Shown: piece after piece, positions 18,110 to 34,236 of the stretch
Layout: every line of letters begins with the position of its first letter
Position numbering within the stretch: position 1 is the first letter of the stretch
DNA from: Ruminococcus sp.
GTDB taxonomy: Bacteria; Bacillota; Clostridia; Oscillospirales; Acutalibacteraceae
Direction of reading: 5' to 3'
Length of the DNA stretch: 40,367 bases
NCBI GenBank assembly: GCA_017403985.1
Contig: JAFRDE010000011.1
Coordinates: 1 to 40,367 of the forward strand
Made by a program: the position numbers and the translations under genes
The notes under the pieces: model-generated
Told to the model about the DNA's origin: nothing
Databases searched by the model: none
What the model saw: the letters and a program-made list of their open reading frames with translations, nothing else

Positions 18110-18382
18110 TGCGTGACTGCACAAGATATGCGATGAAGCGGGAGGTTGCAACCTGAAAGGTTGGTTTTTCCGTGGAGTATGTCCGATTTTAAACCGGGCG
18201 AAAGAATAGTTTGAGCTTTTTGCGACATTGGGGTTGCTATGTCGTAACTGCGCCACTGTGCTTCCGGTTGCCGTTTTTGCGGCTATCGGCTTTTTTAACG
18301 GATGGGGTAGGAACACCCGGGCGGGTGTTTGAAAAGTTGAACGAAATATCGCACCACCAAACAATATTTAGGAGGCGAAGAT
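18110..18382 (+). promoter_or_regulatory. Long structured 5' leader of the S10 operon (likely attenuator)
   Basis: The leader has a three-tier hairpin: GATATGC (18125) with GTATGTC (18177), CGGGA (18139) with TTCCG (18168), and CAACC with GGTTG around a TGAAA loop (18149-18163). A second hairpin, GCGACAT...ATGTCGT, lies at 18222-18245. Then comes a terminator-like hairpin (18264-18296). AACCGG at 18192-18197 is exactly complementary to CCGGTT at 18264-18269, the 5' arm of that terminator, so a competing antiterminator is possible. The inferred role is autogenous control by a ribosomal protein (L4 does this in E. coli); the ligand is unknown. GGAGG precedes rpsJ. Confidence 0.65.
18264..18296 (+). 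terminator. Terminator hairpin inside the S10 leader
   Basis: CCGGTTGCCG (18264-18273) pairs with CGGCTATCGG (18280-18289) in nine of ten positions including one G-U, followed by C and six Ts (18291-18296). It lies upstream of rpsJ within the same transcript, so it would act as an attenuator. A further stem, AACACCC/GGGTGTT, follows at 18312-18329. Confidence 0.75.
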
Positions 18383-18694
18383 ATGGCAGTCAAGGAAAAA
18401 ATCAGAATCAGATTAAAGGGCTACGATCACCAGCTGGTCGACCAGTCCGCAGAGAGAATCGTTGCTACCGCTAAGCGTACAGGCGCGAGGATCTCCGGTC
18501 CCGTCCCGCTCCCCACAGAGAAGCAGGTCGTCACCATTCTCCGCGCTGTTCACAAGTATAAGGACAGCCGCGAACAGTTCGAGATGCGCACCCACAAGCG
18601 CCTGATCGACATTTTAAGACCGTCAAATAAGACAGTCGAGGCTCTTATGAGCTTAGAGCTCCCTGCCGGCGTTGAGATTGAGATTAAGTTATAA
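18383..18694 (+). CDS. rpsJ: 30S ribosomal protein S10
   Basis: This is S10 (NusE), a 30S head protein that also joins the transcription antitermination complex with NusB. The 103-residue protein has the family opening [19 protein letters not shown] and the later THKRLIDI segment that contacts 16S rRNA. AGGAGG lies ahead of the ATG. It is the first gene of the ribosomal operon, behind a long leader. It is separated from rplC by 269 bases holding the conserved element at 18695. Confidence 0.98.
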
Positions 18695-18823
18695 GCGCTG
18701 AGGTCCGGAGCCCTCGGATAACGACGGACGAACCGGGACCGCCCGGAGGACTCAAAGAGTCCGCAGGGTGGTTGGGTGAGTAGGAGTTATACGAGGAACA
18801 GCGAAGGACAACGAGGCGTGACA
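18695..18823 (+). ncRNA. Conserved structured element, copy 1 (unidentified)
   Basis: This 129-nt segment begins one base after the rpsJ stop and is matched by 34044-34171 after rpoA. The first 31 bases are identical to the other copy but for one base. The last 48 (from 18776) match at about 43 positions, including GGAGTTATACGAGGA and AGGACAACGAGGCGTGACA. The middle differs in sequence but folds alike: AACC/GGTT outer stem and GGACTC-AAA-GAGTCC hairpin. CTGAGG pairs with CCTCGG near the 5' end and ATAAC (18718) with GTTAT (18786). It behaves like a folded RNA; family unknown, with a HEARO/omega-RNA-like element as one untested candidate. Confidence 0.7.
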
Positions 18824-18908
18824 TGCTGTCGCAGACCGATTTTACCCAACGATTTCGGTTTGGACGCGCACTTATCACATTCCCAACCTACCACGCAGAC
18901 AGGGTCAT

Positions 18909-18936
18909 GTCGGCTATATATAATGTATAAGCCGAC
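18909..18936 (+). promoter_or_regulatory. Palindrome with a possible internal promoter before rplC
   Basis: GTCGGCT (18909) and AGCCGAC (18930) form an inverted repeat around an A-T loop that contains TATAAT (18919-18924). CAGACA lies 17 bases upstream (18896-18901), a 4/6 match to a -35 box. It may be a hairpin in the rplC 5' region, an internal promoter, or both. From 18824 to 18895 nothing is recognised. Confidence 0.4.
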
Positions 18937-18963
18937 CAATAACCTAAAAGGAGGATATACAGA

Positions 18964-20526: not shown

Positions 20527-20530
20527 GCCT

Positions 20531-20592
20531 GTGGGTTCGCTTCGCTCACAGTGAATAGTGAATAGTGAAGGGCGGGACACCCGCACCCGATT
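20531..20592. repeat. Family A intergenic repeat in the S10 operon
   Basis: A short hairpin (TGTGGGTTCGCTTCGCTCACA, 20530-20550, split by mismatches) is followed by AGTGAAT heptamers (20550-20569), the palindrome GGGCGGGACACCCGCACCC and GATT. The remaining bases up to rplB show only the ribosome site region. It lies between co-transcribed essential genes, so it must be tolerated in the mRNA. Confidence 0.8.
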
Positions 20593-20715
20593 CCTGTTCA
20601 TCTGTCACTGCAGCGGCAAGCGAAACAGAAATTCATCTTTACAATAACGACACAGGCATGAATGTATGGGATGCGCCATCATCCCGCAAAGCCATCATGA
20701 GGAGAGTGAAATAAC

Positions 20716-33011: not shown

Positions 33012-33082
33012 CGATTAGTATGTGAGCATCACGGCAGGAACCCCTGTCCGTGCAGTATAAAAATTTAAGGAGGAATTCGTTC

Positions 33083-34036
33083 ATGATAGAGATTAAAAAA
33101 CCCAGTATTGATACAGAAGAGTTATCTTCGGACGGTAAGTACGGCAGATTTGTGGTTGAGCCTCTTGAGCGCGGCTTCGGCAACACGCTGGGCAACTCTC
33201 TTCGTCGCGTGCTGCTCTCCTCTTTAGAGGGCGTAGCCGTTACATCGATCAAGATCGACGGAGTGAACCATGAGTTCTCTACCATCCCCGGCGTCAAGGA
33301 AGACGTCACCGAGATCGTTCTGAACATGAAGAGCCTGGTGGCAAAACTCCACTCTAACGGTCCCAAGATCGTTGAGATCTCTGCGGAAGGTCCCTGCGAG
33401 GTCACCGCTGAGAGCATTAAGTGCGACAGCGAGGTCGAGATCCTCAACCCGCAGTTGCACATCGCGACCCTCGCCGACGGCGCGACTCTGAACATGGAGA
33501 TCACGCTGGATAAGGGCAGAGGTTATATCCCCGCCGAGAAGAACAAGCTCATTTCGGGCAACGAGATCATCGGCGTACTCCCCATCGACTCTATCTACAC
33601 CCCTGTTCTCAAGGTGAACTATACGGTGGACAACACCCGTGTCGGTCAGATCACCGACTACGACAAGCTCACCCTGAGCGTTTGGACAAACGGCGTTATC
33701 AACGCACAGGAGGCGGTATCGCTTGCCGCTAAGGTCCTCACCGAACACCTGAATCTCTTCGTCAACCTCTCCGACAGAGGCTTCAACACCGAGATCATGG
33801 TCGAGAAGGACGACAAGGGCAAGGAGAAGGTGCTCGAGATGACCATCGAAGAGCTCGACCTCTCCGTCCGTTCGTTCAACTGCCTTAAGCGCGCCGGCAT
33901 CAATACCGTCGAAGACCTTATCTCTAAGTCTGAAGAGGACATGATGAAGGTCCGCAACCTCGGCAGAAAGTCGCTGGAGGAAGTCGTCTTCAAGCTGGAT
34001 TCCTTAGGTTTCAGCCTGCGTAAGGACGACGAATAA
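33083..34036 (+). CDS. rpoA: RNA polymerase alpha subunit
   Basis: RpoA dimerises to start core polymerase assembly and its C-terminal domain contacts promoters and activators. From ATG 33083 (AAGGAGGA upstream) the protein is 317 residues, the usual length. The N-terminal domain shows [20 protein letters not shown] with LLSSLEG; the C-terminal domain has [20 protein letters not shown] and LGRKSLEEV. The start at 33050 lacks a ribosome site and is rejected. A 200-base spacer with the second copy of the conserved element precedes rplQ. Confidence 0.97.
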
Positions 34037-34043
34037 ATAAGAA

Positions 34044-34171
34044 GCGCCGAGGTCCGGAGCCCTCGGATAACGACTGGCGAGCCTGTGCCTGAAGAAGTGA
34101 CCGCAGGTCACGGAAACAGGCAAGCGAGTGGGAGTTATACGAGGAGAAGCGGAGGACAACGAGGCGTGACA
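34044..34171 (+). ncRNA. Conserved structured element, copy 2 (unidentified)
   Basis: This 128-nt segment starts seven bases after the rpoA stop and matches copy 1 at 18695-18823 in both end blocks. CCGAGG pairs with CCTCGG near the 5' end (copy 1 has CTGAGG, a C-G to U-G change) and ATAAC with GTTAT. The divergent middle keeps the same fold: GCCTGT/ACAGGC outer stem and GTGACC-GCA-GGTCAC inner hairpin. The rest of the spacer to rplQ (34172-34236) is A-T rich and carries the rplQ ribosome site. No ORF is embedded. Confidence 0.7.
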
Positions 34172-34236
34172 CACCTGATATTTACTATTAACTTTATAGA
34201 TATCTGTAAAGAAAGACCCGAAAGGAGTGAAACATA

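Follow-up and report, generated by a model that had tools for sequence, protein, structure and literature searches.

A rod-like hairpin behind the ends of genes and RNA units in Ruminococcus, apparently a mobile RNA element

Two copies in one window

Why should the same structured element stand directly behind two different genes of a ribosomal-protein operon? The question is raised by a stretch of 40,367 nt from a Ruminococcus sp. (GCA_017403985.1, contig JAFRDE010000011.1; analysed in full and hereafter called the window), in which one copy of an element of ~130 nt, here termed the rod (18692..18825, + strand), lies directly 3' of rpsJ, encoding ribosomal protein S10 (18383..18694, +; an ORF whose protein was matched in 43 of 60 genomes), and a second (34041..34173, +) directly 3' of rpoA (33050..34036, +; an ORF that takes its name from an earlier, sequence-only reading). 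Both copies are inside a conserved operon. Copy 1 begins with the TAA stop codon of rpsJ (18692-18694), and four bases intervene between the end of the rpoA ORF (34036) and the start of copy 2 (34041).

The sequence-only reading had claimed one element at both places, with near-identical ends and diverged middles that refold alike. The first claim was confirmed by the sequence and by matches to a covariance model (R1) of 147.3 bits for copy 1 and 137.1 bits for copy 2. As for the others, the copies differ at one position in their first 31 bases and at four in their last 46, both end in GTGACA, and their middles do pair as described. Upstream of copy 1, Rfam placed an S10-Clostridia leader (RF03136) at 18125-18201.

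A dispersed family in the genus

BLAST with one copy as query gave seven matches in the genome of origin (G000), which resolve into six copies; two of these stand head to tail on contig C13. The model R1 was built from these six copies and recovered the same six. A covariance-model search for further copies, as suggested by the sequence-only reading, was extended to 60 same-genus genomes, where the R1 match column summed to 197 in 33 genomes, with 1 to 25 matches per positive genome. A larger model (R2, from 114 copies) detected the rod in 6 of 250 genomes and 3 of 135 genera of a family sample, and in 3 of 394 genomes of an order sample, all of the same genus; these counts are lower bounds, since filters were stricter and few candidates were scored in the large samples. 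In addition, a DNA pattern search returned 27 named loci carrying the rod, from metagenome-assembled genomes or uncultured isolates labelled Ruminococcus, Ruminococcaceae, Clostridia, Clostridiales or simply bacterium; several of the isolate names contain rumen or gut. Neither phage nor plasmid collections had a blastn match, and no exact pattern match was found in viral contigs.

For the analyses below, copies were taken from among the R1 matches listed, by fetching 60 regions together with the 27 named loci. R1 gave 145 matches on the fetched regions, the named loci and some short loci, and removal of matches of ~100 nt or less and of repeats of the same context left 120 unique copies, of which 99 lead an array; these are not independent, because orthologous sites were counted separately. 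Gene ends came from our own simple codon-usage gene caller, and only one of the 120 own-genus copies overlaps a called gene.

Searches of Rfam at gathering scores gave no match over the rod in the window or over the element at 20 further rod loci. At E up to 10, copy 1 had no match and copy 2 just two, both on the minus strand, very weak and far under cut-off. Among open-access full texts (subscription papers being outside this scope), no paper was recognised as describing the element. The rod family is new in sequence, host and placement, and it looks like a mobile RNA element outside the Rfam library searched.

These searches also bear on a HEARO/omega-RNA without its ORF, an identity that the sequence-only reading had put forward as a candidate. 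HEARO elements insert next to ATGA or GTGA, and the rod shares with them a structured, mobile, RNA-like character and, in both window copies, the terminal GTGACA. Against this stand the lack of an Rfam HEARO match for both copies at E up to 10 and for the 20 loci at gathering score, and an upstream flank that is variable, with no fixed ATGA/GTGA by eye. Moreover, a protein-domain screen of the 60 genomes (PF00078, reverse transcriptase; PF01797, Y1 transposase; PF14239, the RRXRR domain of IscB/IsrB) detected PF14239 over cut-off in none of them, its single weak match, below cut-off, being in the element-negative genome G008. The candidate was not upheld, and we give it hardly any credence.

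Fold and covariation

The MFE z-scores were -6.28 for copy 1 and -5.67 for copy 2, and for neither was any of 200 dinucleotide shuffles as good. The predicted fold is a single unbranched hairpin built of short helices separated by purine-rich loops; by eye, several of the loops resemble tandem G-A steps. In the MFE structure of copy 1, the basal stem joins a GCGCT arm (18695..18699, +) to a GGCGT arm (18815..18819, +; part of helix 1), and the apical stem-loop, GGACTC-AAA-GAGTCC (18748..18762, +), is helix 8, the most variable helix; the apical stem-loop of copy 2, GTGACC-GCA-GGTCAC (34097..34111, +), is given by the MFE fold and by the pairing over 114 copies. The rod was also considered as an intrinsic terminator and rejected, given no terminator-like site at copy 1 and no T-run, by eye, behind either window copy.

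The compensatory change and selected structure claimed in the sequence-only reading hold over 114 aligned copies. Standard pairs occupied 91.7% of cells, compared with 32-41% when partners were slid, in a count that leans towards the rod structure because the alignment was fitted to a model of that structure. In the same copies, 36 of 40 pairs showed double-sided changes, and the covariation score was 0.596 against 0.04-0.09 for slid partners. However, 14 of 39 pairs were already double-changed in a MAFFT alignment of six copies. Pairing was found in 97.8% of cells in helix 8, with all six pairs changed on both sides, and in 89.6% in the basal helix 1, a figure that includes a doubtful first pair: the pairing of position 1 with the C of TGAC, which the models include, was dropped, its second commonest state being U-U, which is no pair.

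Sites shared between genomes add a more local view. Probable orthologues in the rplW-rplB gap of G015 and G033 had three pairs doubly changed and kept, one changed on one side and kept, one broken and 34 the same. Other same-site copies (G000/G035, G000/bin172 and G012/G055) had four to seven broken pairs against each other.

The non-Watson-Crick cells comprised 319 G-U, 31 A-C and 346 others, and the large excess of G-U over A-C, concentrated largely in a few pairs, suggests that the given strand is the one that folds. In the outer helices, covariation is almost entirely of the Watson-Crick type, nearly without G-U, and a single-stranded DNA hairpin would suit these stems as well.

Gain and loss between species

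The rod is present in multiple dispersed copies, inserted at sites that are empty in relatives, and is gained and lost between species; the mobility proposed in the sequence-only reading is thus substantiated by sites occupied in one genome and empty in others. At one place, a 133-bp insert of G017 is absent from G044, with flanks 97.7 and 95.9% identical, and another insert, of G044, is absent from G017 and G012 (flanks 82-86% and 96-98%). The gap behind rpoA, the site of copy 2, is occupied in L049 and L125 and empty in L059 and L117. G035 lacks an array that the genome of origin carries in the leader of a gene taken to be thrC; the flanks are 88 and 92% identical, and the change there also takes in extra flanking bases. 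On a tree of 38 genomes, at least seven changes are needed to account for rod presence, which is clustered, none of 500 shuffles giving so low a number. A burst of 25 copies was found in G055, compared with 0 to 6 in the seven genomes of its sister group on the tree.

The gaps of the S10 operon behave likewise. Of 31 rpsJ-rplC gaps read, 29 were empty and only G000 and G013 had the rod; these two were also the only occupied loci among 39 scanned. The rplW-rplB gap is occupied in G012, G055, G031, G015, G033 and G036 and is without the rod in, e.g., G017, the closest tree relative of G012.

Other elements were observed in both gaps. The rpsJ-rplC gap holds a conserved motif at 18883-18960 (CAACCTAC..GCAGACAGGGTCATGTCGGC..GCCGACCAATAACCTA..AGGAGG), with variants in the relatives read and no Rfam match at gathering score, which is a candidate rplC leader. 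In the rplW-rplB gap (20527-20715), a GCCTGT..ACAGGC hairpin whose loop varies is accompanied by a tail (GAATGTATGGGA..CCATCATGAGGAG) that is strongly conserved; found in many relatives read, this is a candidate rplB leader and spot for inserts. A short repeat at 20570-20592 (GGGCGGGACACCCGCACCCGATT) recurs in the rplW-rplB gaps of G037 and G058. The G058 locus (L193) has the rplW end in tandem duplicate and no full rod, with a 10-nt piece resembling the rod 5' end (TGTGCGCCGA) between the duplicated ends.

Being short, non-autonomous, dispersed and hairpin-forming, the rod resembles a MITE. One possible explanation, which we consider somewhat unlikely, is a purely selfish MITE: a host transposase would mobilise it in trans in the form of a DNA hairpin, its structure would persist as a requirement of that transposase, and its placement would show no more than where insertion is harmless. 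Dispersed copies, empty sites, bursts such as that of G055 and the nearly strict Watson-Crick covariation of the outer stems agree with it, and passages of two earlier accounts view many small hairpin repeats in this way (PMC2229807, PMC10969869). On the other hand, no general target-site duplication was apparent: 54 copies showed a slight excess over shuffled flanks, and the cleanest empty site showed no duplication beyond a 3-nt ambiguity. Placement and the distribution of Y1 transposases, considered below, count against a selfish MITE.

Placement behind the ends of genes and RNA units

In more than half of the cases examined, the rod shares the orientation of a gene, terminator or RNA gene that ends directly before it. 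Of the 99 array-leading copies, 41 start within -9 to +8 nt of a stop codon belonging to an upstream gene on the same strand, and the mirrored arrangement at the 3' end occurs in none of them. Starts at +1 to +5 nt from a stop codon account for 32 of the 99, a range that takes in 0.99% of non-coding positions and strands (binomial p 3.5e-39, which overstates the independence of copies). Sense-strand starts immediately after a stop codon are in extreme excess.

As a control, another hairpin repeat of the same genomes was examined in the same way, with 40 loci fetched, 32 of the 40 copies usable and 8 dropped because an end was not found; only two of its 64 ends fell in the -9 to +8 range. This repeat (L003:1077-1197; ends GTAGGGGACGGCGC / CGTCCCCTAC) is more abundant than the rod and has many matches in G000, G012, G017 and G044. 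Harmlessness of insertion alone, as supposed for a selfish MITE, does not predict the single orientation of the rod (41 vs 0), and the second hairpin repeat shows no such placement.

For the rest of the 99 copies, the script assigned 10 to positions behind terminators, two behind tRNAs, two behind 23S rRNA and two behind CIRCE elements. The remaining 42 were given no upstream unit; inspection by eye placed several of them a short way downstream of a promoter-like -10 box and a few at stops or terminators that the script overlooked. A terminator-like hairpin on the mirrored 3' side of nine of the 99 counts against a perfect placement rule. Besides stop codons, 5' junctions occur at the T-runs of terminators, the CCA ends of tRNAs and the ends of 16S and 23S rRNA. 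In one rRNA operon (L088:72-5281), the order is 16S, tRNA, rod, tRNA, rod, 23S, with a rod directly behind each spacer tRNA.

Similar contexts were found in two other genera, where 14 copies comprised four at stop codons (L161, L170, L177, L167), two behind terminators by eye (L162, L165), one behind 16S rRNA (L166), one in frame in a valS-like ORF (L181) and six with unclear or short flanks. The L181 insert (1501-1629), a rod with a second partial copy, is in frame in a valyl-tRNA-synthetase-like ORF with no stop in frame and is not at a unit boundary.

The first two copies, behind rpsJ and rpoA, had also led the sequence-only reading to consider a ribosomal-protein-linked regulator. The S10/spc/alpha operon, about 16 kb of genomes of 1.4-2.9 Mb, does hold 15 of the 99 array-leading copies, a number that includes both window copies that prompted the search. 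The other 84, however, are elsewhere, beside tRNAs, rRNAs, terminators and other genes, no one gene is tied to the rod, and among the loci read the rpsJ-rplC and rplW-rplB gaps are mostly rod-free. A cis-regulator of ribosomal-protein operons is already largely refuted by these mixed contexts and is very improbable; a ribosomal-protein leader was likewise rejected, as the element is not conserved at one gene across species. All 15 copies of the S10/spc/alpha operon are sense and none antisense; together with the predominance of G-U over A-C, this suggests that the rod is probably selected as RNA.

Arrays and mobilising machinery

Among the 116 copies whose right flank was long enough, a full copy follows 18, only the first 8-54 nt of one follows 27, and neither follows 71. 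To the left of 120 copies, a full copy precedes 18, nothing precedes 99, and three were scored as following a 3' fragment, of which two are copies cut by the locus end and one follows what is really a full copy. With 27 of 116 copies followed by a 5' fragment and no genuine mirror case (a 3' fragment ahead of a copy) among 120, arrays evidently begin at the rod 5' end and stop at a variable point.

Integration directed to the places where RNA units end (RNA 3' ends, R-loops or terminating complexes) would produce a constant 5' junction, short linkers and a 3' end that varies. Both the 5' junctions listed above and the contrast within arrays between full 5' and truncated 3' ends are in keeping with this reading, which we nevertheless regard as unlikely. 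Copies shortly behind promoters and inside coding sequence fit it poorly, the sequence 3' of the insert is retained at rpsJ-rplC, and the reverse transcriptase domain was not found in G055, G039 and G045, three near-complete, copy-rich genomes of which G055 and G039 are the richest. Spread dependent on a reverse transcriptase of the same genome was rejected on the same ground.

Nor do the screened domains follow the rod, which further weakens the MITE explanation. Among the 33 element-positive genomes, 13 had a reverse transcriptase domain and 18 a Y1 transposase over cut-off; among the 27 negative ones the numbers were 8 and 12, which makes 30 of 60 for the Y1 enzymes. No Y1 transposase was found in the genome of origin or in G055, G039 and G045, and dependence on a same-genome Y1 (RAYT-type) enzyme was rejected accordingly. 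Among proteins recurring near copies, the largest cluster spans seven loci, and ribosomal proteins of the shared operons were recognised. Pfam identified no transposase or nuclease among ten other recurrent neighbours, which were metabolic, transport, regulatory, peptidase or dockerin-bearing proteins or had an unclear, patchy match.

The fixed 5' junction, the arrays of n copies plus a fraction and the short linkers also suggest a bolder and quite improbable reading, that of a viroid-like, termination-coupled mobile RNA of bacteria. Its DNA copies would be made from a multimeric or circular RNA of rod shape and placed directly behind the 3' ends of transcribed or translated units, on the sense strand; no reverse transcriptase dedicated to it was found.

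A possible role for the rod

The facts of structure and placement are much firmer than any function. The explanation that we prefer, with about even confidence, is a mobile, RNA-selected, portable insulating or processing hairpin of the ERIC/BOX/Correia kind. Under this explanation, the rod as part of the host transcript would fold once a translated or structured unit has ended, and the folded rod would act as a portable insulator or processor where co-transcribed units meet, keeping cistrons, tRNAs and rRNAs protected or apart, while its copies would spread in trans. Since a ribosome would extend into the basal stem when it terminates 0-5 nt upstream, the state of that stem could follow translation of the preceding gene, as argued for ERIC. 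Copies behind terminators need not be part of the upstream transcript. Such a role as a co-transcribed insulator or processor, which the host may exploit or simply tolerate, is the part of which we are least sure.

Either the rod carries a transferable RNA function that species gain and lose, or its insertion senses the ends of translation or transcription. A comparable repeat ignores stop codons, whereas the rod keeps one orientation, very often starts right after stop codons, terminators, tRNAs or rRNAs, the S10/spc/alpha operon and an rRNA operon included, and preserves its fold by compensatory change. The covariance model provides a candidate RNA family for gut Ruminococcus.

Comparison with known small repeats

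Rickettsia palindromic elements (RPEs) insert in frame in genes, and the rod copy that reads through in frame in the valS-like ORF of another genus resembles them in this; the rarity of overlap with called genes in the rod's own genus (one of 120 copies) sets it apart. The RPE entry in a table of PMC2229807 gives only an open reading frame. Correia elements (NEMIS) of Neisseria are transcribed stem-loops of 107-155 bp for which, in passages of PMC2229807 and PMC10969869, cutting by RNase III is proposed or shown. As described there, they have 24-bp terminal repeats and target duplication, unlike the rod, which also differs in being interrupted by frequent internal loops.

Enterobacterial ERIC (also IRU or RU-1) is portrayed in part of PMC2229807 as a stem-loop-forming repeat of ~127 bp, co-transcribed with its neighbours, whose orientation matters for its effect on upstream mRNA stability. 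Compared by description, it is similar to the rod in length and stem-loop form and differs in host. The TA termini and target duplication tabulated for ERIC (PMC2229807) were not found generally in the rod flanks inspected, and those passages describe no sense-only placement of ERIC directly behind stop codons. BOX, RUP and SPRITE are, like the rod, small structured repeats with variable internal arrays. BOX, in the portion of PMC3049150 consulted, is a composite of boxA, boxB and boxC that is over-represented between convergent genes, with no fixed post-stop place described there; in Streptococcus pneumoniae, the stop codons of 36 CDSs are provided by a BOX element downstream of them (PMC3049150). 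With this supply of stop codons by BOX and the orientation-dependent effect of ERIC on upstream mRNA, as far as these sources describe them, a function of the kind proposed for the rod has precedent.
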